Assembly: GCF_020037015.1 (NCBI RefSeq)
Contig: NZ_JAIQDE010000001.1
Location: 558,001-622,000, forward strand
Source: Corallococcus sp. AS-1-6
Lineage (GTDB): Bacteria; Myxococcota; Myxococcia; Myxococcales; Myxococcaceae
Direction: 5' to 3'
DNA: 64,000 nucleotides
In this document: positions 40,651-64,000 of the stretch, piece after piece
Layout: every line of letters starts with the position of its first letter
Position numbering within the stretch: the first letter of the stretch is position 1
Notes under the pieces: generated by a model
What the model was told of the DNA's origin: nothing
What the model saw: the letters and a program-made list of their open reading frames with translations, nothing else
Database searches by the model: none
Made by a program: the position numbers and the translations under genes

Positions 40651-41853
40651 ATGAGGAACACCACGCTTCGCGGCACATTGCTCGTGCCGTTCCTTACGCT
40701 GTTAGGCCTTTTGTCGGGTTGCATCCTCGAGACGAATGGTGGCGGCTACTGGCCTGACGACGACTACGACACCAGCTACGGCTGCTCCACCACGTCCGAC
40801 TGCGGCTCCAATCAGTACTGTCGCTCGGGGAGCTGCTGGGACCTGAGTTCCGACTCCCAGAACTGCGTCTATTCGAGCGAGTGTCCCGGCACGCAGATGT
40901 GCATCAACGGCTGGTGCGCCCAGTCCTGCTACCGCGACTCGGAATGTGGCGCGGGCGGCCTCTGCAAGGACAACTTCTGCACCTCCGGCACCAAGCCGGA
41001 CGCGGGCACGGACGGCGGCACCAAGACGGATGGCGGCACGAAGCCGGACGCGGGCACGGACGGCGGCACGAAGCCGGACGCGGGCACGGACGGCGGCACG
41101 AAGCCGGACGCGGGCTCCGACGCCGGCACCCCGGTCTGCCGGGTCAATTCTGACTGCGGCACGGACCACTACTGCATCAACGGCACCTGCCGTCAGCAGT
41201 GCGACGCGGATGACAAGTGCGGCCCGGGCGGCCTGTGCATCCAGGGCCTGTGCCAGAAGCCGCAGACGGACCCGAACGCGTGCACCACGGAGGCTCAGTG
41301 CCCCACGGGCCGCGACTGCGTGAACGGCCAGTGCCGCGCGCCGTGCACCTCCACGACGGAGTGCTCGGCGGACACCAAGTGCGAGGTGGGTTACTGCCTG
41401 CCCATCCCGACTGGCGGCCAGTGCCAGGCCAACTGCGAGTGCCCGGCGGGCCAGGTCTGCACCAGCGGCCAGTGCAAGTCGCCGCAGCCGGACCCGGGCC
41501 AGGCGTGCCTCGCCAACTGCGACTGCCCCTCCGGCCAGGTGTGCAACAACGGCTACTGCAAGCAGCCGGTGCCGGACGCGGGCTCGGGCAGCAACATCTC
41601 CTGCACGGTGAACTGCGAGTGCCCGTCCGGTGAGGTCTGCACCAGCGGCAAGTGCAAGCTGCCCCCGACGCAGCCCACGACGGACGCGGGGACCACCGGC
41701 ACCGTGTGCCGCGCCAACTGCGAGTGCCCGGCCGGCCAGGCCTGCACCAGCGGCCAGTGCAAGCCGGTGAACCACGGCTCAGGCAAGGTCTGCCAGGCCA
41801 ACTGCGAGTGCCCATCCGGCGAGCGCTGCCAGGACAACGTCTGCTGGCTGTAG
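40651..41853 (+). CDS. Cysteine-rich repeat lipoprotein
   Basis: A 400-residue lipoprotein: signal peptide with lipobox LLSGC (about Cys23). The mature part contains about ten small disulfide-type repeats (CPAGQVCTSGQC, CPSGEVCTSGKC and similar), in the style of myxobacterial Cys-rich repeats. A low-complexity spacer, GTKPDAGTDG, interrupts them. It probably sits on the outer membrane or cell surface. The ATG at 40651 gives a compact signal peptide. It diverges from the ECF sigma gene, which may control it. Confidence 0.82.
   Translation: MRNTTLRGTLLVPFLTLLGLLSGCILETNGGGYWPDDDYDTSYGCSTTSDCGSNQYCRSGSCWDLSSDSQNCVYSSECPGTQMCINGWCAQSCYRDSECGAGGLCKDNFCTSGTKPDAGTDGGTKTDGGTKPDAGTDGGTKPDAGTDGGTKPDAGSDAGTPVCRVNSDCGTDHYCINGTCRQQCDADDKCGPGGLCIQGLCQKPQTDPNACTTEAQCPTGRDCVNGQCRAPCTSTTECSADTKCEVGYCLPIPTGGQCQANCECPAGQVCTSGQCKSPQPDPGQACLANCDCPSGQVCNNGYCKQPVPDAGSGSNISCTVNCECPSGEVCTSGKCKLPPTQPTTDAGTTGTVCRANCECPAGQACTSGQCKPVNHGSGKVCQANCECPSGERCQDNVCWL
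40990..41124 (+). repeat. 30-bp in-frame tandem repeats in the lipoprotein
   Basis: 41041-41070 and 41071-41100 are identical 30-bp units; a near-identical unit lies at 40992-41021 and a partial one at 41101-41124. Each encodes KPDAGTDGGT. Confidence 0.9.
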
Positions 41854-48877: not shown

Positions 48878-50245
48878 TTAAGCAGCGGTGCGGTGCAGGT
48901 AGTCGATGAGGTCGATCTTCGTGACGATGGCGACGACGGTCTCTCCGTCCTTCACCACGGCCACGTTGTCGCGCGCGAAGATTTCACGCAGCCGGTCGAT
49001 GCTGGCCTCGGCGGACACGGCGCCCTGGAGCGGGGCGACGATGGGGTCGATGGCGTCCTGGAACTTCACCTTGTTGGCGACCAGGGCGTTGAGCAGGTCG
49101 TACTCGTGCACCATGCCCACGGCGCGCCCGTCGTCGGACACCACGGGCATCTGGCTGATGCCGTGGCTGCGCATGGTCTCCACCACGCGGTCCACGCGGT
49201 CACCGCGCTTGGCCGTCTTCAGGTCGCGGGGCTTCGCGCCGATGATGTCGCGCACGGTGCCGGCGCCCTTCTCCTGCATGAAGCCGTTGTCGCGCATCCA
49301 CTCGTCGGAGTGGAACTTGCTGATGTAGCTGCTGCCGGAGTCCGGCAGGACGACCACGATGGTCTTCCCCTTGCCGACCTCCTTCGCCAACTGCACCGCC
49401 ACGTGCACGGCCGCGCCGGACGAGCCACCCGCGAAGATGCCCTCCTCACGCGCCAGCCGGCGCGCGGCGTTGAAGCACATGCGGTCATCCACCTGGCGCA
49501 CGTCGTCCACGACCTTGAAGTCCATGGCGCCGCAGAGCATGTCCTCGCCAATGCCCTCGACCTTGTAGACGTGCGGCTCGGTGAGCTTGCCCGTCTTGAA
49601 GTAGCCCTCGTAGACGGAGCCCTCCGGATCCACGCCGATGTTCTTCAGGCCGGGGATCTTCTCCTTGAGGTACTTGCCGGCGCCGCTCATGGTGCCGCCG
49701 GTGCCCAGGCCGGACACGAAGTAGTCGAACTTGCCCTCGGTCTGCTGGAAGATCTCCGGACCGGTCGTGTGGTAGTGCGCCTCGATGTTGTCCGGGTTGT
49801 GGTACTGGTTCAGCATGAAGGCGCCCGGCGTCTCCTTGGCCAGCCGCTTGGACGTCTCGTAGTAGCTGCGCGGGTCCTCGGCCGGGACGTTCGTCGGCGT
49901 GACGACGACCTGGGCGCCCATGGCCTTCAGGCGGTTGATCTTCTCCAGGGACATCTTGTCCGGCATGGTGAAGATGCACTTGTAGCCCTTCACCGCCGCG
50001 GCCAGCGCCACGCCCATGCCGGTGTTGCCGGACGTGTTCTCCACGATGGTGCCGCCGGGCTTGAGCTTCCCCTCCCGCTCGGCCTTTTCGATGATGTAGA
50101 GCGCCATGCGGTCCTTGATGGACGCGCCGGGGTTCATGAACTCGCACTTCACGAGCACGGTGGCGTCGTTCGGACCGACGAGCTTGTTGAGCTTCACCAG
50201 CGGCGTGTGGCCAATGGCGGTGAGGATGTTCTGTTGGATGTCCAT
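48878..50245 (-). CDS. cbs: Cystathionine beta-synthase with tandem CBS domains
   Basis: A 455-residue PLP enzyme joining homocysteine and serine (or a cysteine-synthase-like reaction). PLP binds Lys44 (NPGASIKDR), with ENTSGNTGMG phosphate loop and GLGTGGTMSGAG. Two CBS regulatory modules follow (about 340-450: HGISQMPVVSD and VVKDGETVVAIVTKIDL). With the gene at 43720 it can build a reverse trans-sulfuration route. The ATG at 50245 was selected by homologous N-terminus; upstream residues are unrelated. Diverges from amgK across 259 bp. Confidence 0.92.
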   Translation of the reverse strand: MDIQQNILTAIGHTPLVKLNKLVGPNDATVLVKCEFMNPGASIKDRMALYIIEKAEREGKLKPGGTIVENTSGNTGMGVALAAAVKGYKCIFTMPDKMSLEKINRLKAMGAQVVVTPTNVPAEDPRSYYETSKRLAKETPGAFMLNQYHNPDNIEAHYHTTGPEIFQQTEGKFDYFVSGLGTGGTMSGAGKYLKEKIPGLKNIGVDPEGSVYEGYFKTGKLTEPHVYKVEGIGEDMLCGAMDFKVVDDVRQVDDRMCFNAARRLAREEGIFAGGSSGAAVHVAVQLAKEVGKGKTIVVVLPDSGSSYISKFHSDEWMRDNGFMQEKGAGTVRDIIGAKPRDLKTAKRGDRVDRVVETMRSHGISQMPVVSDDGRAVGMVHEYDLLNALVANKVKFQDAIDPIVAPLQGAVSAEASIDRLREIFARDNVAVVKDGETVVAIVTKIDLIDYLHRTAA

Positions 50246-50299
50246 CGTGCGTGGCTTCCCGAAAAAAGTGAGGGTCGGGGCCTTATATGTGCTCCGCCC

Positions 50300-50340
50300 C
50301 GTCAGGGGGAACATGCCCGAAGGCATGGCCCTTCCTGACG
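50300..50340. promoter_or_regulatory. Nested inverted repeat upstream of cbs and amgK
   Basis: CGTCAGG (50300-50306) and CCTGACG (50334-50340) enclose CATGCC-CGAA-GGCATG. On the minus strand the inner hairpin has a TTCG loop closed by C-G, an extra-stable type. A weak cbs -10 box, TATAAG, lies at 50282-50287. Confidence 0.5.
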
Positions 50341-50504
50341 CAGGATGCCGCGACCGTGTGGGTGTTGCCCTGGGGTTCCTCGTCGCGTAGGCGACAGGGC
50401 AGGCGTCTGGCGGACGCGTGGCCCACGCGGGCTTTGACCCGCCGCGCCGTGCCTCCGATACTCGCGGGCGTCGTTTCCTTCCCCCTCCGGAGCACCCGCC
50501 CCCC

Positions 50505-51545
50505 ATGGAACTTGAGGCCGCCCTTCGCGACCAGGTGGGACAGGCCATTGGCCGTCCCGTCCCCGATGCCCCCATCCAGAAGCTGAAGGGCGACGCGAGC
50601 AACCGCTCCTACTACCGCGTCGGCCGCGCCCCGGAGAGCTGGGTGCTGATGGTGATGCCGCCGGACGCGACGAAGAAGAGCGAGGAGGCCACCAAGGGCG
50701 AGCCCCCGAAGGAGCTGCCCTTCATCAACGTGCACCGCTACCTGGAGAAGCTGGGCGTGCGCGTGCCGCGCATCCTCCGCTACGACGAGCCCGCAGGCAT
50801 CATGGTGCTGGAGGACCTGAGCGACATCACCTTCGAGTCCGCGCTGGAGGGAGGCCGCCACCACCAGGCGCTCTACACGCGCGCGGTGGACCTCTTGGCG
50901 AAGCTGCGCGTGCAGGCGGAGAAGCAGCGCGACCCGGAGTGCCTGGCCTTCACGCGCGCCTTCGACGAGGACCTGTACGACTGGGAGCTGCACCACTTCC
51001 GCGAGTGGGGCCTGGAGGCCTGGAGCGGCAAGACGCCCACGGACGCGGAGCGCGCGGAGCTGGACGCCACGTTCCGGGACATCGCGAAGCAGCTCGCCGC
51101 CGCGCCGCGAGGCTTCACGCACCGCGACTACCAGAGCCGCAACATCATGGTGAAGGAGGGCGAGCTGGTCGTCATCGACTTCCAGGACGCGCTCCAGGGC
51201 CCGCGCCAGTACGACCTGGTGGCGCTCCTGCGCGACAGCTACGTGGAGCTGGACCGCGACTTCGTGGACACGATGCTGGACCGCTACATCGCCACGTTCG
51301 AGCAGGAGAGCGGGGAGAAGATCGACGCGAAGGAGTTCAAGGCGTTCTTCGACCTGCTCACCATCCAGCGCAAGCTGAAGGACGCGGGCCGCTTCGAGTT
51401 CATCAACCGCGTGAAGGGCAACCCGGGCTTCCTCGTCTCCATCCCCGCGTCGCTGCGCTACGTGAAGGCCGCGTTCGCGCGCCGGCCGGAGCTGGCGGGG
51501 CTGCAGAAGCTGATTTCGAAGTACGTGCCCGAGCTGGCGGCCTGA
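50505..51545 (+). CDS. amgK: Aminosugar kinase AmgK-like (N-acetylmuramate/N-acetylglucosamine kinase)
   Basis: A 346-residue aminoglycoside-phosphotransferase-fold kinase. The catalytic block is FTHRDYQSRNIMV with VIDFQDALQGP following; the N-terminal segment KLKGDASNRSYYRV is typical for AmgK. It would phosphorylate MurNAc at C1 for reuse of cell-wall sugars. The MurU-like uridylyltransferase follows after 4 bp, which supports the assignment. ATG at 50505 chosen by homology; the upstream stretch of the open frame is unrelated. Confidence 0.87.
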   Translation: MELEAALRDQVGQAIGRPVPDAPIQKLKGDASNRSYYRVGRAPESWVLMVMPPDATKKSEEATKGEPPKELPFINVHRYLEKLGVRVPRILRYDEPAGIMVLEDLSDITFESALEGGRHHQALYTRAVDLLAKLRVQAEKQRDPECLAFTRAFDEDLYDWELHHFREWGLEAWSGKTPTDAERAELDATFRDIAKQLAAAPRGFTHRDYQSRNIMVKEGELVVIDFQDALQGPRQYDLVALLRDSYVELDRDFVDTMLDRYIATFEQESGEKIDAKEFKAFFDLLTIQRKLKDAGRFEFINRVKGNPGFLVSIPASLRYVKAAFARRPELAGLQKLISKYVPELAA

Positions 51546-51549
51546 AGCC

Positions 51550-52578
51550 ATGAAAGCGATGGTCCTCTGCGCGGGCCTGGGCACGCGCCTGCGCCCGCTC
51601 ACGGAGCGCTGGCCCAAGCCGGCCATGCCGTTTCTTGGCCAGCCGCTGCTCCGCTATCACCTGGCGGTGCTGAAGGCCGCCGGGGTGACGGAGGTGGGCA
51701 TCAACACGCATCACCTGCCGGACACGATGACGGCGGCGGCCCGCGCGGAGTGCGAGCGCGCGGGGCTGCCGCTGCACGTCGTGCACGAGCCCGTCATCCA
51801 GGGCACGGGCGGAGGCATCCGCGGCCTGCGCGACTTCCTCTCCGGCGAGGACTTCCTCGTGTTCAACGGGGACATCCTCTTCCCGGTGGACCTGCGGCCC
51901 GCGGTCGCGGCGCACCGCGAGTCCGGCGCGGTGGCGACGATGGTGCTGTTGCCCATGCCGGAAGGGGAGAAGTACGCGGCGGTGGAGGCGGACGCGGGCG
52001 GGCAGGTGCGCCGCATCGCGGGGTACGGGCCGGGCGGTGAAGGCCTGCGGCCGTGGCACTTCACCGGCGTGCACGTGATGTCCCCCAGCGTGTTCGACTT
52101 CATGACGGCGGAAGGCCCCGAGGACATCAACCGCGAGGTCTACGTGCGGGTGATGCAGGCGGGGCTCCAGGTGCGTGGGCACGCGGTGGACGCGTACTGG
52201 TCCGACCTGGGCATGCCGTCGCGCTACCTGGCCACGGTGCGGGACGTGCTCGAAGGGCGCGTGCCGTTGCAGGCGCTGGGGACGGACTCGCCGCTGCACG
52301 GGCTGAAGGCCGGGGCGGACGGAGCCTGGGGGCATCCGGAGGCCCGCGTCGAGGGCACCGTTCGCGGGCCTGCGTTCGTGGGCGCGGGCGCTGTCGTGGA
52401 AGCGGGCGCCAGCGTGGGCCCGGGCGTGTCGGTGGGCCCGGGCGCGCGGGTGGGGCAGGGCGCGAAGTTGGAGCGCTGCGCAGTGTTCGAGGAGACGCAG
52501 GTGGCCCCCGGTGAGGCGCTGACTGAAGTGCTCGCGTGGGGCCCGCACCGGGTGCCCGCGCCGCTCACGGGGCGCTGA
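51550..52578 (+). CDS. murU: Nucleotidyltransferase, MurU-like, with hexapeptide-repeat tail
   Basis: A 342-residue sugar-1-phosphate nucleotidyltransferase (CAGLGTRLRPLTERWPKPAMP signature, FNGDILF metal site). Next to AmgK it most likely makes UDP-MurNAc, bypassing de novo synthesis. Unlike short MurU proteins (about 220-240 residues), it has a C-terminal left-handed beta-helix of hexapeptide repeats (VGAGAVVEAGASVGPGVSV), as in GlmU-type or mannose guanylyltransferase enzymes, so substrate assignment depends on the neighbour. Confidence 0.8.
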   Translation: MKAMVLCAGLGTRLRPLTERWPKPAMPFLGQPLLRYHLAVLKAAGVTEVGINTHHLPDTMTAAARAECERAGLPLHVVHEPVIQGTGGGIRGLRDFLSGEDFLVFNGDILFPVDLRPAVAAHRESGAVATMVLLPMPEGEKYAAVEADAGGQVRRIAGYGPGGEGLRPWHFTGVHVMSPSVFDFMTAEGPEDINREVYVRVMQAGLQVRGHAVDAYWSDLGMPSRYLATVRDVLEGRVPLQALGTDSPLHGLKAGADGAWGHPEARVEGTVRGPAFVGAGAVVEAGASVGPGVSVGPGARVGQGAKLERCAVFEETQVAPGEALTEVLAWGPHRVPAPLTGR

Positions 52579-52595
52579 GCTCGGGGGTGAAGGAC

Positions 52596-52631
52596 GAAGG
52601 CCCGCGCTCCCTTTCGGGGGCACGGGCCTTC
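52596..52631. terminator. Hairpin terminator between convergent genes
   Basis: GAAGGCCCG pairs with CGGGCCTTC (9 bp) around an 18-base loop, followed by TCGTTTC. Confidence 0.6.
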
Positions 52632-52654
52632 TCGTTTCTCGCGACGGGGGTCGC

Positions 52655-53419
52655 TCAGGCGGCGTGGTAGCGCGCCAGCACGCAGGTGACGTTGTCGTTG
52701 CCGCCCGCCGCGTTGGCCAGGTCGATGAGCTGGCCGCACGCCTTCTCCAGCTCCGGCGTGCGCGACAGGATGTCCTGCATCTGCGCGTCGGTGATCATGC
52801 CGCTCAGGCCGTCCGAGCACAGCAGGAAGACGTCGTTCTCCAGCGGATCCACGCGGGTGACGTCCACCTGCACCTGCTCCTTCATCCCCAGCGCGCGGAC
52901 GATGACGTTCTTGTGGGGGAAGTTCTCGATCTCCTCCGGCGTGAGCTTCTTCGCCTTGAGGTAGTCGTTGAGCAGCGAGTGGTCCTCCGTCACCTGCTGG
53001 AGGATGCCGCCGCGGAAGAAGTACACGCGGCTGTCGCCCACGTGGCCCACGTAGACGCCGTTCTCCGCGAAGTGCACGGACACGATGGTGGTGCCCATGC
53101 CCTTGTACTTGGAGTCCGTCGTGGCGCGCTCGAAGATGCGCGCGTTCGCCAGCTTGATGCCGGTGGCGAGGCGGTTCTCGTCGTAGTTGCGCTGCTTGTC
53201 CATCTTGAAGGGCCAGGTGGCGTCCTGGTCCTTGGACGTGAGGCGGAAGAACTCACCCAGCTCGTCCACCGCGATGCGGCTGGCGATCTCCCCGGACGAG
53301 TGGCCTCCCATGCCGTCCGCCACGCACACGAGGTTCTCCTCGGTGAGCACGAGGTAGTTGTCCTCGTTGTGGTTCCGCTTCATCCCGACGTGGGTGCTGC
53401 CGGCGACCTCGATACGCAT
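52655..53419 (-). CDS. PP2C-family Ser/Thr protein phosphatase
   Basis: A 254-residue metal-dependent phosphatase. Metal-binding motifs are KRNHNEDN, VADGMGGHSSGEIAS, VGHVGDSRVYFF, CSDGLSG and GGNDNVTC. It reverses phosphorylation by eukaryote-like kinases, whose signals FHA proteins in this window would read. No kinase is encoded here. The ATG at 53419 fits the usual length of 240-260 residues. Confidence 0.93.
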   Translation of the reverse strand: MRIEVAGSTHVGMKRNHNEDNYLVLTEENLVCVADGMGGHSSGEIASRIAVDELGEFFRLTSKDQDATWPFKMDKQRNYDENRLATGIKLANARIFERATTDSKYKGMGTTIVSVHFAENGVYVGHVGDSRVYFFRGGILQQVTEDHSLLNDYLKAKKLTPEEIENFPHKNVIVRALGMKEQVQVDVTRVDPLENDVFLLCSDGLSGMITDAQMQDILSRTPELEKACGQLIDLANAAGGNDNVTCVLARYHAA

Positions 53420-53463
53420 GCGAAGGGACTCTTCCGGGGGAGAGGCGTGAAAATCGGGGCGCG

Positions 53464-53493
53464 ACGTTAACAAAGCGTTCCAAAAGGGGTCAA
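53464..53493 (-). promoter_or_regulatory. Candidate promoter of the PP2C gene
   Basis: On the minus strand TTGACC (53488-53493) is followed after 18 bases by TAACGT (53464-53469), about 45 bases before the start codon. Confidence 0.45.
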
Positions 53494-53567
53494 AAAGCTC
53501 TCTCGTGTCGCAGCATTCCACCCTCCGGGTGTGGGTGGGCGGGACGGCCCCCGCCACCCCGGCTCCC

Positions 53568-53936
53568 CTAAACGCCCGGGGGCTCCCCCGGGGCGAAGAG
53601 CAGGCGGTCGCCCTCCTGGGTGCCGCTGGCCAGGAGGACCCCGGCGGGCAGCTCCAGGACGGAGCGGGCCTTGAAGTAGATGGACGAGGTGCGCCAGGGA
53701 GGCATGGCGGACAGTTGCTTGACGATGCGCCCTTCCGCGTCCAGGAAGGCGACGTCGATGGGGATGCGCATGAAGAAGGTGTGGATGGAGTTGCAGGGGT
53801 CGATGTGCATCCCGCCCCCCATGGGCAGCGAGGCGCGGCCCATGAGCCCCTGGAAGCGCTGGACGAAGGACTCGGCGCGTTCGGCGCGGTCCGCGAGCAG
53901 CCGCTGCCGCGTTTCGTTGGTCACCCTCCAGTGCAT
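53568..53936 (-). CDS. DUF192 family protein
   Basis: A 122-residue single-domain protein with the DUF192 pattern: FVQRFQGLMGRASLP, CNSIHTFFMRIPIDVAFLD and VLELPAGV. Function is unknown. Start ATG at 53936, 17 bp from the divergent trmL gene. It precedes the PP2C gene on the same strand by 148 bp that holds the PP2C promoter. Confidence 0.9.
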   Translation of the reverse strand: MHWRVTNETRQRLLADRAERAESFVQRFQGLMGRASLPMGGGMHIDPCNSIHTFFMRIPIDVAFLDAEGRIVKQLSAMPPWRTSSIYFKARSVLELPAGVLLASGTQEGDRLLFAPGEPPGV

Positions 53937-53953
53937 GTCCGGTGTTCTATCCC

Positions 53954-54457
53954 ATGCTTGAGCCCCTGGCGTCCCCCCTGCACCTGGTCCTCGTGTCGCC
54001 CCAGATTCCGCCCAACACCGGCAACGTGGCCCGGCTGTGCGCGGTGACGGGGTGCCGGCTCATCCTGGTGGAGCCCCTGGGGTTCTCCATCGACGACCGG
54101 CACCTGAAGCGGGCGGGGCTGGACTACTGGGACAAGGTGTTCCTGAAGCTGTACCCGACCTACGACGCCTACGTGGCGGAGTACCCCCAGGCCCGGCGGT
54201 GGCTGTTCTCCGCCCGGGCGGAGACATCCCTGTACGCGGCGCGGTTCGAGCCGGGGGACCACCTGGTGTTCGGCTCGGAGGTGACGGGGCTGTTGCCGGA
54301 GGTGATGGAGGGGGGGACGGGGACGCCGGTGACCATCCCGATGCTGCCGGAGCGCCGGAGCTTGAATCTTTCGACGTCGGTGGGGATTGGCGCCTACGAG
54401 GCGCTGCGGCAGGTGCAGTTGGGGACAGCGGGCAGGCAGGCGCCGCCGTCGAATTGA
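53954..54457 (+). CDS. trmL: tRNA (cytidine/uridine-34-2'-O)-methyltransferase TrmL
   Basis: A 167-residue SPOUT methyltransferase. The signatures [23 protein letters not shown] and [16 protein letters not shown] form the knotted SAM site. It methylates the wobble base of certain leucine tRNAs. ATG at 53954 or a GTG 12 bases earlier; length fits either (E. coli 157 residues). The large helical protein gene starts 34 bp downstream. Confidence 0.92.
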
Positions 54458-54491
54458 GGGGCGGGCGGGACGGGCTACACTCCGTGGCCGA

Positions 54492-57400
54492 ATGTCCGCC
54501 TCGCAGGTCGCCGAAGCGCTGTATGCCGCCCACAAGTCCCGAGCCACCGGCCGGCTGACGCTGCACGCCGGTGGACGCGAGTCCGCGCTGTGGCTGCGCG
54601 AGGGTGACCTGGTGGGGGCGAAGCTGGGCTTCGGCTACCAGACGCCGGCGCAGGCGCTCTTCCAGAACGGGCTGTTGGGGGCGGATTCCCTGGACGCGCT
54701 GTGGGCGCGGGGTGGGGCTTCGGCGCCGGACGAGGAGCTGCTGGAGGACAGCGGGCTCCAGTCCGCGGTGGTGCACGAGCAGCAGGTGCTGGCGCAGGTG
54801 CGGCGGCTGAGCGAGCTCGCGGAGCGCGCGGACTTCGAGGCGGAGGCGGTGGAGGCGGCGGGGGATTTCGCGCCCATCGCGGGCATGCGGGTGGTGCGGG
54901 CGGCGCTGGAGCCGGCGCCCCGTGAGTCCGTGCCCGCGAGGGTGTACCGCTGCCCGGACGTGGCGGCGTGCGAGCCGTGGCTGACGGAGGCGTCGGAGCG
55001 GAGCCTGCTGGAGACGCTGGGGGCGTTCCGGAGGCCGGAGGCGCTGACGGGAGCACAGCAGGCGCTGCTGCGGGTGCTGGAGCGCGAGGGCCGCATCGAG
55101 GCCCTGTCGGTGGAGGAGTGGGAGGAGCGCGAGCGGCTGCGGCGCGAGGAGGAGCTGCGGCAGGCGGAGGAGGAGGCCTGGGCCATCGAGGAGGCGCGCC
55201 GGCGCGAGGAGGCGGAGCGGCGCGCGGAGGAGGCGAGGCTCGCGGAGCTGGCGCGGCTGGAGGCGGAGCGGCTGGCCGAGGAGGCGAGGCTCGCGGAAGA
55301 GGCTCGGCTGGCGGAGCTGGCGCGGCTGGAGGCGGAGCGGCTGGCGGAGGAGGCCCGGCTGGCCGAAGAGGCGCGGCTCGCGGAAGAGGCGCGGCTCGCT
55401 GAAGAGGCACGGCTCCGGGCGATCGAGGAAGCACGTCAGGCGGAAGAGGCGCGGTTGGCGGAGCTGGCGCGGCTGGAGGCGGAGCGGCTCGCGGAAGAAG
55501 CTCGGCTGGCGGAGCTGGCGCGGCTGGAGGCGGAGCGGCTCGCGGAAGAAGCTCGGCTGGCGGAGCTTGCTCGCATCGAAGCGGAGCGACTGGCGGAAGA
55601 GGCGCGGCTGGCGGAAGAGGCGCGCATCGAAGCGGAGCGTCTCGCGGAGGAGGCCCGCCTCGCGGAGCTGGCGCGCATCGAAGCGGAGCGTCTCGCGGAG
55701 GAGGCCCGCCTCGCTGAACTTGCGCGCATCGAAGCGGAGCGGCTGGAGGCGGAGCGGCTGGCCGAGGAGGCTCGTCTCGCGGAAGAGGCGCGACTCGCGG
55801 AGTTGGCGCGGCTGGAGGCGGAGCGGCTGGCCGAGGAGGCTCGTCTCGCCGAACTGGCGCGCATTGAGGCGGAGCGGCTAGCCGAAGAGGCGCGGTTGGC
55901 GGAGCTTGCTCGCATCGAAGCAGAGCGACTCGCCGAAGAGGCCCGGCTTGCGGAGCTGGCGCGCATCGAGGCGGAGCGGCTGGCCGAGGAGGCCCGGCTC
56001 GCGGAAGAGGCTCGGCTGCGTGCGGAAGAGGAGGCCCGGCTCGCGGAGGAGGCACGCCTCGCGGAAGAAGCGCGTCTTGCCGAAGAAGCTCGCCTTCGCG
56101 CCGAGGAAGAGGCGCGTCTTGCCGAGGAGGCTCGGCTCGCTGAAGAGGCCCGCCTTGCGGAAGAGGCTCGCCTTCGCGCCGAAGAAGAGGCTCGGCTCGC
56201 CGAAGAGGCGCGGCTGGCGGAGGAGGCACGCCTTCGCGCGGAGGAAGAGGCTCGGCTCGCTGAAGAGGCGCGGCTGGCGGAAGAGGCCCGACTTCGTGCG
56301 GAGGAAGAGGTTCGGCTTCGCGCCGAAGAGGAGGCCCGGCTCGCCGAAGAGGCCCGGCTTGCGGAGGAGGCGCGCGTCGCGGAAGAGGCCCGACTCGCCG
56401 AGGAGGCCCAGCTTCGTGCCCTTGAAGAGGCGCGGCTCGCTGAACTTGCACGTATCGAAGCCGAGCGACTAGCCGAAGAGGCTCGCTTGGCCGAGGAGGC
56501 CCGTCTCGCGGAAGAGGCTCGGCTGCGTGCGGAAGAGGAGGCCCGTCTCGCGGAAGAGGAGGCCCGGCTCGCGGAAGAGGCTCGACTTCGAGCACTCGAA
56601 GAGGAGCGGCTTGCGGAGGAGGCACGTCTTCGCGCGGAGGAGGAAGCGCGGCTGGCGGAGGAGGCCCGCCTTGCCGAAGAAGCTCGTCTTCGTGCGGAGG
56701 AAGAGGCTCGTCTCGCGGAGGAAGCCCGTCTTCGCGCGAACGAGGACGCTCGACTCGCGGAAGAGGCGCGGCTGGCTGAAGAGGCCCGGCTTGCTGAAGA
56801 GGCTCGGCTGCGTGCGGAAGAGGAGGCCCGGCTCGCGGAAGAAGCGCGTCTTGCCGAAGAGGCTCGCCTTCGCGCCGAAGAAGAAGCCCGGCTCGCTGAA
56901 GAGGCTCGCCTCGCCGAAGAGGCACGGCTGGCTGAAGAGGCACGGCTGGCTGAAGAGGCTCGCCTTGCCGAAGAGGCACGGCTGGCTGAAGAGGCTCGCC
57001 TTGCCGAAGAGGCTCGCCTTGCCGAAGAGGCTCGGCTTCGTGCGGAGGAAGAGGCGCGACTCGCTGAGGAAGCACGGCTGGCTGAAGAGGCGCGACTGGC
57101 CGAAGAGGCTCGCCTCGCCGAAGAGGCACGACTCGCGGAGGAGGCCCGCCTTCGTGCCGAGGAGGAAGCGCGAGTAGCCGAAGCGGCGCGGCTCGCTGAA
57201 GAGGCCCGGCTCGCTGAAGAGGCCCGGCTCGCTGAGGAGGCCCGGCTAGCCGAAGAGGCCCGCTTGGCCGAAGAGGCCCGTCTTCGTGCGGAGGAAGAAG
57301 CGCGTCTCGCTGAAGAGGCTCGCCTCGCTGAAGAGGCCCGGCTCGCTGAAGAGGCTCGCCTCGCTGAGGAGGCCCGGCTCGCTGAGGAGGCCCGGCTCGC

Positions 57401-60400
57401 TGAGGAGGCCCGGCTTGCCGAAGAGGCCCGCTTGGCCGAAGAGGCCCGCTTGGCCGAAGAGGCCCGTCTTCGTGAGGAGGAGGCTCGACTCGCAGAAGAA
57501 GCACGCCTCGCGGAGGAAGCTCGGCTTCGCGCGGAAGAGGAGGCTCGTCTCGCGGAGGAGGCCCGACTCCGTGCAGAGGAAGAGGCCCGACTGGCGGAAG
57601 AGGCACGTCTGGCAGAAGAGGCCCGCCTTCGCGCCGAAGAGGATGCGCGCGTCGCTGAAGAGGCTCGCCTCGCAGAAGAGGCCCGGCTTGCGGAACTGGC
57701 GCGCATTGAAGCCGAGCGCCTTGCCGAAGAAGCGCGGCTCGCCGAAGAGGCCCGGCTTCGCGCGATCGAGGAGGCTCGACTCGCTGAGGAAGCGCGGCTG
57801 GCTGAAGAGGCGCGCCTGCGTGCGGAGGAGGAAGCCCGCCTGGCTGAAGAGGCCCGGCTTCGCGCGGAGGAAGAAGCGCGTCTCGTTGAAGAGGCTCGAC
57901 TCGCCGAAGAGGCCCGGCTTCGGAAGAGGCCCGGCTTCGCGCGGAGGAAGAAGCGCGTCTCGTTGAAGAGGCTCGACTCGCCGAAGAGGCCCGGCTTCGT
58001 GCGGAGGAAGAGGCACGACTCGCTGAAGAGGCTCGTCTGGCCGAAGAGGCCCGGCTTCGTGCGGAGGAAGAGGCACGACTCGCTGAAGAGGCTCGTCTGG
58101 CCGAAGAGGCGCGCCTGCGTGCGGAGGAGGAGGCACGACTCGCCGAAGAGGCTCGACTCGCCGAAGAGGCCCGTCTTCGCGCAGAGGAAGACGCACGACT
58201 CGCCGAAGAGGCCCGGCTGGCCGAAGAGGCCCGGCTGGCCGAAGAGGCCCGGTTGGCGGAGGAGGCCCGCCTCGCGGAAGAGGCTCGCCTCGCGGAAGAG
58301 GCTCGCCTTGCCGAAGAGGCTCGCCTTCGCGCGGAAGAGGAGGCTCGGCTCGCGGAGGAAGCCCGTCTTCGTGCTGAAGAAGAGGCCCGGCTGGCCGAAG
58401 AGGCCCGCCTCGCGGAGGAAGCCCGCCTTCGCGCGATCGAAGACGCCCGACTCGCAGAGGAGGCTCGGCTGGCGGAAGAGGCTCGCCTTCGCGCGGAAGA
58501 AGAGGCACGTCTCGCGGAAGAGGCTCGACTGGCCGAAGAGGCTCGGCTCGCCGAAGCCGCACGCCTCGCGGAAGAAGCCCGCCTTGCCGAAGAGGCTCGC
58601 GTTCGCGCCGAAGCCGAAGCACTGCGCCTCGCGGAGGAAGTCCGTCTTCGCGCCGAGGAGGAAGCCCGTCAGGCCGAACTCCACCGCCTCGCCGAAGAGG
58701 CCCGTGCCGCCGAGGCCGCCCGCCTCGCGGAACAGGCCCGCGCCGCCGAAGAGGCCCGCCTCGCGGAACAGGCCCGCGCCGCCGAAGAGGCCCGCCTCGC
58801 CGAAGAGGCCCGCGCCGCCGAAGCCCAGCGCCTGTCCGAACAGGGCAAGCCCGCCCATCCGCCCTCACTCCCCCGGCGCTCCCGCCCGGCCGCGCCCTCC
58901 ACGCCGCCCCCGGTCCTCGTCCCCCTCGCCGCCGCGCCCGCGGAGCCCGAACCGCTCACGCTCGGGCCCGAGGACATCATCCTCACCGCGGAGCCTGAAC
59001 CCGCCGCCCCGTCGAACTCCTGGGCGGACTCCATCCCCGCGTCCCCCCGCGACGCCCTGGAGCTCCCCTCCAGCGACAACACCGCCGCCCTCACGGAGGC
59101 CCGCAAGCGCGCCCAGGCCGCCCTGCTCCAGGACATGGCCGAGGCCCTGCGCCGCTCCGCCTCCGTCCCCCTGGACCCGTGGCTCACCGAGGAGCCCTCG
59201 CGCTTCCCCGTCGCGCCCCCCCCGGAGCCCGACCTCCCCCTCCTGGAGGTCGAGCCGGAGAGCTGGGGCGACATCGTCCCCGCCGCCGCCCCCCTCCCGG
59301 ACACCCAGGCCCCCGCGCCGGCCGCCCCCGTCGTCCCCGCCGAGGCGCCCCCGCAGCCGGACCTCTGGGCCGTCCAGCCCCCCAAGTTCCCCGCGTCCTC
59401 CACACCGCCCGTGCGTCCCGCCCGCGCCAGCGAGGACGACCTGTGGCGCATCGTCTCCTTCGACGAGTCCAACGACCCCGCCCAGAACCTCACCGCCTCC
59501 TTCGAGGCCGCCCTCCAGCAGGTGGACGCCCACCTGGAGGCCCTCATCCGCTCGGATGTCCGCTCGGCCGGCGACGCCAACGAATTCCTCGTCGAGGCCA
59601 TCGTCGAAGCGACCTTCGAGCCGCTGCCTTCTCCCCTCGCCACCGCGTTCCCCGGTGACAACGCGGGGGCTTCTGGCCAGACTGGGGATGAGTTGTCCGG
59701 TGATCTGGACGACTGGGATTTTGACGAGGACGACGTGGCGGCCGAAGACCCCTCCAACCCCGACGAAGCCTCCAAGCTCCGGCGCCAGCGCCTCCTGCGC
59801 CGTGCCATGGAGAACATGGGCACGCTCGGCGCCCGCCCCGTTCCCCCCGCCGCCGCGAGCACCCCGGCCACGCCCGAAGGCGTCGCGCCGCCCGCCGCCG
59901 TCGCCGCGCCGGCGGAGCCCCCCAAGCCCGACGAGGGCCGGCTCGCGCAGCAGATTGAGCAGCGCTACGCCGACATCCAGACGAAGAAGGACCACTTCGT
60001 CACACTTGGGGTTCCGCAGGACGCCTCGCGCGACCAGGTGAAGGCCGCCTTCCTGAGCCTCGCCAAGGTCTTCCACCCGGACCGGCTGCCCCCGTCGCTG
60101 CCCCACCTGGCGCCGAAGATCACCGCCGTCTTCGAGTCCATCCGCGAGGCCTACGAAGTCCTCCACGACGACACCCGCCGCAAGAACTACCAGTTGGCCC
60201 AGCAGGGCGCGCAGGCCGCCCCCAAGCCCCCGGCCTCCAGCGGCGCCCGCCCCGGCAGCCCCGCCGCGGCCCGCGCGGACACCAACGCGGACGACCTGTT
60301 CCGCATGGGCGAGGTCTTCTTCCGCAAGCGCGACTTCGTCGCCGCCAGCGAGCACTACGAGCGCGCGTACGGCCTGGACCCCAAGCCCCTGTACCTCGCG

Positions 60401-60676
60401 GCGCGCGCCTGGGCCGTCTACATGGACCCCGGCCGCAAGGCCGACATGCCCCGCGCCAAACAGTGGATGGCGGATGCGGTGCGCACCGACCCGAACTGTG
60501 ATCGCGCCCACTACCAACTGGGCGTCATCGCCCGCGTGGAAGGGGACATGGACCGCGCGGAGAAGCACTTCCGGGAAGCCGTCCGTGCGAACCCCAAGCA
60601 CCTGGAGGCGAACCAGGAGCTGCGGCTCATCGACATGCGCAAGAAGAACCCGCCCAAGAAGGGTCTCTTCCGCTGA
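54492..60676 (+). CDS. Giant helical repeat protein with DUF4388-like N-terminus, J-domain and TPRs (frame broken at 57922)
   Basis: The N-terminal 150-190 residues begin [20 protein letters not shown] and resemble DUF4388 (two-helix/strand, [23 protein letters not shown]). From about residue 233 to 1444 (frame-corrected) the sequence consists almost entirely of E, A, R and L in LAEEAR and LRAEEEAR units, without Gly, Pro or aromatics. A Pro-rich linker follows (about 1445-1780), then a J-domain (HPD in [15 protein letters not shown]) and TPR units ([17 protein letters not shown]). The frame changes at 57922/57923 because a 17-bp unit is duplicated; removing it gives one 2055-residue protein. 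As given, translation from 54492 would continue with an Arg/Pro-rich tail to 60041. Start ATG 54492. Cytoplasmic; role unknown. Confidence 0.75.
55190..58840 (+). repeat. Long array of 18- and 24-bp coding repeats (EARL-type)
   Basis: Units of 18 bp (LAEEAR) and 24 bp (LRAEEEAR) with highly variable synonymous codons (GCG/GCC/GCT, GAG/GAA, CGG/CGC/CGT/CGA). Some neighbours are identical in 60-bp blocks (57983-58042 and 58043-58102). Confidence 0.9.
57846..57999 (+). repeat. Exact 77-bp tandem duplication causing the frameshift
   Basis: 57846-57922 and 57923-57999 are identical. Each copy begins and ends with the same 17-mer, GAAGAGGCCCGGCTTCG, so the junction has that 17-mer twice in a row. 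77 is not a multiple of 3, hence the frame change; a 60-bp step would have stayed in frame. Confidence 0.9.
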
Positions 60677-60729
60677 CTCGCCTGTCCCCCGGGGAGGGAG
60701 CCGGCCGGTTTTCCGGACAGTCCCGCCCA

Positions 60730-60759
60730 TTGACACACCTGGAAACCGGACCCGATGCT
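60730..60759 (+). promoter_or_regulatory. Candidate promoter of the receiver-DUF4388 gene
   Basis: A perfect TTGACA (60730-60735) is followed after 18 bases by GATGCT (60754-60759), about 60 bases before the GTG start. Confidence 0.5.
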
Positions 60760-60807
60760 TGCTCCCACGGGACGCCCCCGTCGGATCCGCCGTCCCGCCC
60801 GTCTTGA

Positions 60808-63603
<2,796 letters not shown>

Positions 63604-63655
63604 GCAGGGGAGGCGGCCTGTCCGCCTCCTGCCCGCCCTTGTTGTCGGAGTCGTC

Positions 63656-64000
63656 GTGCTCGTCCTGGGACTTGAAACCTCGTGCGATGAAACCGCCGCC
63701 GCCGTCGTGGAGGACGGGCGGCGCGTCCTGTCGGACGTCGTCTCCACGCAGGTGGACATCCACCGCCGCTGGGGCGGCGTCGTACCGGAGCTGGCCAGCC
63801 GCAACCACATCGTCCAGGTGATGCCCGTCGTCCACGAGGCCCTCACCCGCGCGGACAAGGCGCTGGACGACATCGACCTCATCGCCGTCACGTCCGGCCC
63901 CGGCCTCATCGGCGCGCTGCTCGTGGGGCTCCAGGTGGCCAAGGGCTTGAGCCTCGCCACCGGCAAGCCCTTCGTGGGCGCCAACCACCTGGAGGGGCAC
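63656..64000 (+). CDS. tsaD: tRNA N6-adenosine threonylcarbamoyltransferase TsaD (partial, 3' end outside window)
   Basis: 115 residues of TsaD are present: [15 protein letters not shown] at the N-terminus and [13 protein letters not shown]. The enzyme transfers threonylcarbamoyl to A37 of ANN-decoding tRNAs and is universal. The GTG at 63656 is preferred because the conserved [11 protein letters not shown] follows directly; GGAG lies about 10 bases upstream. The window ends inside NHLEGH, a metal-binding stretch. It lies 52 bp after the receiver gene. Confidence 0.93.

Follow-up and report, generated by a model that had tools for sequence, protein, structure and literature searches.

Relation to described systems

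A described system with parts similar to those of the gene examined here, a giant gene at positions 54492-60676 of a 64,000-nucleotide stretch of the Corallococcus sp. AS-1-6 genome (contig NZ_JAIQDE010000001.1, positions 558,001 to 622,000; the window), is the cyanobacterial DnaK1 system. As passages of PMC12288463 and PMC9239167 describe, the pilus-motor components PilB and/or Hfq are interaction partners of DnaK1, which works with DnaJ3, a J-protein of the TPR type. Polar placement of DnaK1 requires the coiled-coil protein HmpF, and PilB is bound by PATAN regulators. Modules of the same types (J-domain and TPR, PATAN, and a long helical protein), which in cyanobacteria meet at the pilus motor, recur in the giant protein; there they are separate proteins, whereas here they form one chain, and the likeness drawn here is one of module type. 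The myxobacterial pilus regulator FrzS of Myxococcus xanthus, as presented in parts of PMC11580455, likewise has an N-terminus of signalling type and, after it, a long helical section; FrzS has a pseudo-receiver and a coiled coil, and we claim no homology. According to parts of the same source, SgmX, an activator of pili, co-occurs with two PATAN proteins in M. xanthus.

For the long repetitive middle section of the protein (the rod), the closest described class is the single alpha-helix (SAH) domain, known for example from myosins. Passages of PMC5378345 put the mean SAH length at about 75 residues and the longest, in myosins, at about 200, and passages of PMC5812594 give a charged content of up to 80% E/K/R and expect even-numbered repeat units to form straight helices. 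The rod is like SAH domains in its alternation of opposite charges at i+3/i+4, its few hydrophobic networks and its even-numbered units, and unlike them in being far longer, in being 45-59% charged (the SAH passages give no lower limit) and in containing about 30% Ala and 15% Leu. The same end domains in the same order, mostly at the same locus, occur in rod-free DUF4388/PATAN, J-domain and TPR proteins of myxobacteria (outgroup homologues L101-L104, L109, L110, L112 and L114-L117; L and G numbers are our own handles), which differ from the giant protein in lacking the rod, in scoring above the DUF4388 cut-off (5 of 5 scanned) and in carrying an MshE-type motif.

We tentatively propose that the giant protein is an Hsp70-recruiting scaffold docked at a pilus-type motor or at polar regulators, with the rod as spacer; the scaffold role alone is held with more confidence than the whole statement of docking and spacing. 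The architecture (its parts and their order and conservation, the charge pattern, the rod-free orthologues and the lack of the MshE-type motif in family heads) is well supported by sequence comparison; we infer the docking partner, the Hsp70 partner and the purpose of the distance. The protein would be a cytoplasmic co-chaperone scaffold whose PATAN-type head binds a partner that most likely belongs to a type IV pilus or similar secretion-motor complex or to the polar regulators of that complex. With its HPD motif intact, the J-domain would recruit and activate DnaK, an Hsp70; a client or the Hsp70 would be held by the TPR and the motifs of the linker. The rod, a putative single non-coiled alpha-helix inserted between head and tail in the Myxococcus family, would measure mostly 70-200 nm if straight, and about 10 nm in two short-rod members, making the Hsp70 work at a distance from the docking point. 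An Hsp70 partner is implied because the HPD motif of the J-domain is intact, and docking at a pilus motor is favoured because the giant chain unites the module types of the cyanobacterial DnaK1 system. A fuller version, in which an Hsp70 co-chaperone is carried on an SAH that reaches about 1,300 residues, or about 200 nm, has a pilus-motor-docking head that lost cyclic di-GMP (c-di-GMP) sensing, and holds chaperone activity away from the polar motility machine by a distance specific to each genus, is unlikely to hold in all its particulars.

SAH, PATAN and J-domain proteins are known kinds; the novelty lies in their being fused, in how large the helix is and in the insertion of a rod into an ordinary conserved myxobacterial locus. 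An SAH of up to about 1,300 residues would be longer than any known to us. In searches of the openly licensed PMC literature, which leave most subscription-journal papers outside, none of the papers listed had a title or abstract opening on the giant protein.

Gene layout and a frame-breaking duplication

The gene is made up of the following parts.

54492..55169, + strand: N-terminal head, probably a divergent DUF4388 (PATAN), 226 residues (alignment A1, 27 family members)
54636..54803, + strand: helical insertion of the head, residues 49-104; site of the MshE-type c-di-GMP motif in outgroup homologues, unrecognisable here
55170..57845, + strand: rod, frame A part, 892 codons, 97.5% E/A/R/L
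57846..57999, + strand: perfect 77-bp tandem duplication (57846-57922 = 57923-57999), frame-shifting; probable assembly artefact
58001..58846, + strand: rod, frame B part, 282 codons, 95.4% E/A/R/L
58847..59989, + strand: Pro/Ala-rich linker (18% P and 18% A over the 362 residues ahead of the J-domain region)
59498..59536, + strand: family motif SFEAALxQVDxxL in the linker (pattern search of family and outgroup rows)
59780..59818, + strand: basic motif RRQRLLxRAMxNM ahead of the J-domain (same pattern search)
59990..60190, + strand: J-domain, HPD motif at 60074-60082 (PF00226, 50.3 bits)
60503..60601, + strand: TPR, best Pfam stretch (PF00515, 40.5 bits); by eye the TPR-like region starts near 60290

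The first-pass annotation had treated 54492-60676 as one protein. The span is 6,185 bp long, 2 mod 3, and a single open reading frame across it is ruled out by this length and by the frame shift of the 77-bp duplication. Frame A starts with the ATG at 54492, runs through the head into the E/A/R/L repeat and stays open past 57845; frame B, open from before 58001 to 60673, carries repeat, linker, J-domain and TPR, and the two do not join. The gene has 11 exact repeats with a length of 40 bp or above; the duplication alone has a shift that is not a multiple of three, and it consists of exactly two copies with no partial third. The assembly is a draft of 82 contigs. Several short-read sister assemblies have contigs that end just ahead of the J-domain of this gene, the named ones bearing NODE_ style names, and 77 is a common k-mer size of the assemblers that use such names. 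All 15 one-contig family genomes have the gene open, at 1,345-2,131 codons stop to stop.

The exact 77-bp duplication, the draft status, the contig breaks in sister assemblies and the open gene in one-contig relatives make an assembly artefact with a 77-base overlap the likeliest cause of the frame break. If the break were genuine, as the failure of the frames to join in the contig would have it, the strain would make only a head-plus-rod fragment; the same observations, together with the clean repeat and conserved tail retained in frame B, make this very improbable. Outside the duplicated block the rod counts 1,174 codons, against the roughly 1,200 residues first estimated; the figure is nominal, since several short-read sister assemblies break in this gene.

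Composition and predicted helical pattern of the rod

E, A, R and L make up about 97% of the rod, against at most 71% of any stop-free 100-codon stretch elsewhere in the window, so that its early description as essentially these four residues holds for both parts. Hydrophobic residues in frame A are spaced most often by 6 residues, then by 3, 5 and 8 (86, 30, 18 and 18 cases), and in frame B by 6 and 8, in agreement with the 6- and 8-residue units noted at the outset. The 80 EEARLA units have 55 different DNA spellings, codon identity between neighbouring units is 0.49 (0.43 expected from independent draws), and rarer codons, among them GCT, CTT, CGT and GAA, are used more often in the rod than in five genes nearby. 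By this measure the synonymous sites of the repeat units are old and the peptide has been preserved, and long-standing selection on the peptide is indicated because synonymous codons are nearly randomised among the units, as the first-pass annotation had argued. When the genome was searched with a 74-residue rod query, all 19 matches at E<=1e-8 fell in this gene, which rules out a second rod of the same composition here; rods of other compositions would escape such a query.

The statistics that follow cover 35 of the 40 fetched family genes, those with rods of at least 450 residues (L071, cut by a contig end, included); the short rods of L070 and L073 and the contig-cut L069, L075 and L076 were set aside. 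Alternating-charge i+3/i+4 triplets occur at 0.40-0.80 per residue in the 35 rods, compared with 0.09-0.21 after shuffling, and both window parts behave alike; hydrophobic i+3/i+4 triplets lie below shuffle in all 35 and in both window parts. Across 17 family segments, like-charge i+3 pairs fall to 0.000-0.039 per residue from 0.107-0.174 in shuffled sequence, and windowed heptad and hendecad scores are below shuffle in every one, with the GCN4 control (heptad only) above; in this periodicity test, window part A overlapped the first of the two 77-bp copies. These patterns support the proposal of a non-heptad helix patterned by salt bridges, and on the windowed scores a heptad or hendecad coiled coil was rejected for the family.

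A long dimeric or stacked helical assembly of coiled-coil type, resembling the tails of FrzS and HmpF and with the J-domain as an accessory, could draw its hydrophobic material from Leu near 15% and Ala near 30%. It would also fit some hydrophobic power near period 3.4 in the genus of the window, and some Arg-rich designed repeats aggregated, according to passages of PMC5812594. The near-loss of like-charge i+3 pairs and the sub-shuffle heptad and hendecad scores speak against such an assembly, as does the longest hydrophobic seam, only 2-3 in 33 of the 35 rods (4 in L048; 5 in L054, above its shuffle mean of 3.9), and we judge it quite unlikely. A further point in its favour is L099, a homologue from another family, which has a long rod in the same place with a heptad score of 0.27 (0.20 shuffled) at period 3.44. 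Alternating-charge networks in L099 reach 0.249 (0.107 shuffled) and hydrophobic networks are not above shuffle, so its coiled-coil character lies in the heptad score alone; this rod, read from the first 1,669 codons on the reverse strand, begins at a contig end and has one stretch that reads X. The 202-residue outgroup rod fragment of L100 runs against the family pattern at i+3 (opposite charges 0.099, like charges 0.188 per residue) and follows it at i+4 (0.347 and 0.030).

AlphaFold2 modelling of the first 1,000 residues gave helices at 207-401 and 425-999, with rod predicted local distance difference test (pLDDT) values of about 57-83, the last helix of the head continuous with the rod, and the head itself poorly modelled. 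AlphaFold2 favours helix for E/A/R/L-type sequences of this sort. The rod is thus predicted, at moderate confidence, to be helical and not disordered. With about half of its residues charged, we class it as SAH-like rather than as a textbook SAH.

Conserved ends and rod-free orthologues

The J-domain/TPR end first read from the letters was recovered by profile search, with PF00226 at 50.3 and PF00515 at 40.5 bits, both over a cut-off of 27.8. The canonical DnaJ model TIGR02349 reaches 49.7 bits (cut-off 377.2) over the J-domain only, so the protein is not a canonical DnaJ. A comparison of the family's ends, as the first-pass annotation had advised, found that 85 of 96 family genomes have the C-terminal J-TPR part at E<=1e-40, that all 33 aligned J-domains keep HPD, and that heads can be aligned in 27 members; neither random lengths without conserved ends nor disorder throughout the repeat was found. 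In the linker, SFEAALxQVDxxL is present in 39 of 40 family rows, both short-rod members included, and in 0 of 20 outgroup rows, and RRQRLLxRAMxNM in 30 of 40 and 5 of 20, respectively, both patterns having been written after inspection of the sequences. A 36-residue query around the basic motif had its next-best match in the same genome at only E 0.026.

The gene lies between two neighbours that recur in relatives.

53942..54457, + strand: SpoU-type methylase, upstream neighbour, 34 bp ahead of the giant gene (PF00588, 97.7 bits; kept in relatives)
60820..63603, + strand: downstream neighbour with receiver, DUF4388 (75.9 bits), membrane segment and TPR (kept beside the giant gene in many relatives)

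We checked the neighbourhoods of 60 loci, 20 of them outgroup and some cut by contig ends. Where contigs reach, the family keeps the order PP2C (opposite strand), methylase, giant gene and receiver-DUF4388 protein. All three neighbours are retained in the family arrangement at five outgroup loci (L102, L109, L110, L112 and L117) and only some of them at L101, L104, L114, L115 and L116; L103 has the methylase upstream, PP2C after the gene, and the receiver homologue upstream on the other strand. No such locus was found for L105-L108, L111 or L113, and the loci of L098-L100, where rods are present, are cut by contig ends. The frames at rod-free loci span 564-913 codons stop to stop, spurious upstream codons included, with no rod. 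Our tree has an arbitrary root and leaves out the receiver-bearing homologues L105-L108 and L111; its rows L113 and L116 were cut at the wrong HPD and their placement is meaningless.

The simplest reading of these sequences is that a PATAN-J-TPR protein would be ancestral, because rod-free orthologues occupy the same locus with the same end domains, and that the rod was inserted later, the direction being inferred. The pairing of DUF4388 with a J-domain had been thought unique to the giant protein. This is not supported, as the rod-free L005 of the same genome scores 49.5 bits for DUF4388 and 33.2 bits for DnaJ, and the pairing without a rod is most simply the ancestral form of the giant gene.

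Among the TPR proteins of this genome, L002 and L005 have a J-domain, L003 has a J-like stretch (by eye), and L003 and L005 have DUF4388; L002, L003 and L005 are likely a paralogous set. A Myxococcus-type copy of the giant gene (80% identity) is present in L143 (BNCN01000011.1), titled Comamonas sp. KCTC 72670, probably a mislabelled genome.

The head domain

The window head scores 18-19.5 bits against PF14332 (DUF4388), under the Pfam cut-off of 25, so the DUF4388-like head first suggested is only marginal in the window protein itself and draws its support from orthologues. Among family heads, 19 of 27 match PF14332 at E<=0.01, the best of them at 7e-7. In a small open reading frame set, a profile built from alignment A1 matches the rod-free L114, L115, L103, L117, L102 and L104 at E 2e-10 to 5e-8 and, weakly, L109, L112 and L101 at E 2e-5 to 5e-4, and misses L110, L113 and L116. 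All five outgroup heads scanned have DUF4388 above the cut-off (42.6-56.2 bits), three of them among the six best A1 matches. An hhalign comparison of the head with two single DUF4388 sequences gave probabilities of only 3-4%. Taken through its orthologues, the family head appears to be a divergent DUF4388 (PATAN) descendant rather than a scoring member. Modelled alone, the head has a mean AlphaFold2 pLDDT of 88.7; Foldseek of this head against the PDB returned nothing at E<=0.001, and a sequence search of the head alignment against the PDB gave no match at E<=1. A relation to glutamyl-tRNA reductase was rejected, GlutR_N scoring 21.8 bits (cut-off 27) over a 32-residue stretch.

The MshE-related c-di-GMP motif NF053729 occurs at E<=1e-4 in all 15 outgroup heads scanned, namely the 11 at the locus plus L105, L107, L111 and L113, with L106 and L108 left out; four pass the cut-off of 38 bits, and in three the match covers only a portion of the motif. 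In the family the count at E<=0.05 is 0 of 27 heads, and the alignment shows the motif replaced. The heads of the rod-bearing outgroup members L098-L100 are cut off by contig ends. Residues 46-104 of a modelled family head align with the GSPII-B domain of Thermus PilF (Z 3.3-3.5 over 53-54 residues, 3.0-3.1 Å) and with the PilB N-terminal domain (Z 2.1-2.2); unrelated chains outscore these matches, but over head residues 141-226. We take these weak alignments as hinting at a relation between the helical insertion of PATAN and the pilus ATPases' N-terminal domain. According to part of PMC9090330, an MshEN domain lies in cyanobacterial PilB.

The DUF4388 insertion passes the NF053729 cut-off in several myxobacterial proteins (L003 538-2151, L103 4160-4759, L114 4178-4777 and L111 4191-4835). 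This suggests that PATAN domains may often carry a c-di-GMP-binding-type insertion.

Rod length across the family

Rod borders were taken from a composition window, and lengths are approximate. The 36 complete family genes fetched have rods of 62-1,346 residues, and rods reach at least 450 residues in 35 of the 40 genes fetched, the short ones being L070 (78) and L073 (62). Genus statistics were drawn from 31 of the 35 long rods, four of the eight genera having two members only. Corallococcus rods measure 1,170-1,346 residues (n=5), those of genus g19 896-1,165 (n=11), of g3 720-790 (n=4) and of g7 816-900 (n=3); g4, g5, g26 and g6 are pairs, and the two members of g6 differ (474 vs 847). Seven of the eight genera have a within-genus coefficient of variation of 4.6-11.3%. 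Three close species with nearly identical C-termini have rods of 1,052, 906 and 896 residues. Rod length is thus neither random nor fixed.

The first-pass annotation had offered spacer or ruler. The rod is better read as a spacer than as a fixed-length ruler, since its length varies little within genera and several-fold across the family. Were the rod a length ruler, or a polar strut of the cytoskeleton, that set a cellular distance such as the depth of a polar complex, the clustering of lengths by genus would be accounted for. Between species with nearly identical ends, however, rods differ by about 150 residues (22 nm), and a monomeric helix of such length should bend thermally, so we consider a ruler highly doubtful.

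The rod might also be a tolerated, drifting expansion produced by repeat slippage and selected only for helicity and solubility, its distance functionless, with head, J-domain and TPR doing what they do in proteins that lack a rod. The gene shows exact duplications that stay in frame, rod-free orthologues exist, and length varies both between genera and between close species, all of which would be expected of drift. Less easily reconciled with it are the prevalence of rods of at least 450 residues and their small spread within seven of the eight genera. The single charge pattern kept in 35 of 35 rods despite different repeat units, and the nearly randomised synonymous codons, which point to long-standing selection on the protein, also count against drift. 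We regard drift as possible, though on balance doubtful, and retain the spacer.

Evidence bearing on the proposed docked scaffold

Several observations weigh against a docked Hsp70 scaffold with a single-helix spacer. Passages of PMC12288463 describe the DnaK1 system of cyanobacteria as not crucial to the assembly of pili, and the two-hybrid results given in parts of PMC9239167 show no binding of DnaK1 to HmpF or of Synechocystis DnaK1 to PilB. The giant protein is unmatched in 9 of 83 good-quality family genomes, three small-genome family members (G084-G086) have PilM and no match for it, and PilM is present in 190 of 195 genomes, so that co-occurrence with the giant protein cannot discriminate. 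The c-di-GMP motif is absent from the very family that has the rod (0 of 27 heads), and the PilF and PilB matches lie at Z <5, a range the tool calls common. As to the helix, the hydrophobic seam of L054 exceeds its shuffle mean, and Leu and Ala form nearly half of the rod. Whole-rod hydrophobic power near period 3.4 is 5.6-9.9 in the genus of the window (6.0 in window part A; GCN4 8.3), although other periods are stronger in these rods. The AlphaFold2 rod model has a predicted template modelling score of 0.25, and four of the five models averaged 54-60 pLDDT.

A DnaK homologue is reportedly involved in social motility, and this gene opens the way to a direct test of which J-protein works with motility-linked DnaK in myxobacteria. 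The head ties PATAN, c-di-GMP motifs and J-domain chaperones together in a lineage with well-developed motility genetics, and the homologues with no rod, a short rod or a long rod, many of them sharing a conserved locus, form a comparative series on the purpose of a molecular spacer. Should the rod prove to be a single helix in solution, it would provide a natural test of helix stiffness and length in a cell, at about six times the longest myosin SAH given in passages of PMC5378345.

Neighbouring genes and other features

The downstream receiver-DUF4388-TPR neighbour is a candidate partner of the giant protein. By eye, its receiver Asp is in the usual place and its membrane segment lies at 62860-62916. 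The upstream SpoU-type methylase is presumably TrmL-like. An Rfam scan of 50000-64000 gave no match, and no sigma-70-type promoter or terminator patterns were found in 53800-54700. Elsewhere in the window, a 30-bp tandem repeat with a 54-bp exact match run lies at 41032-41115.

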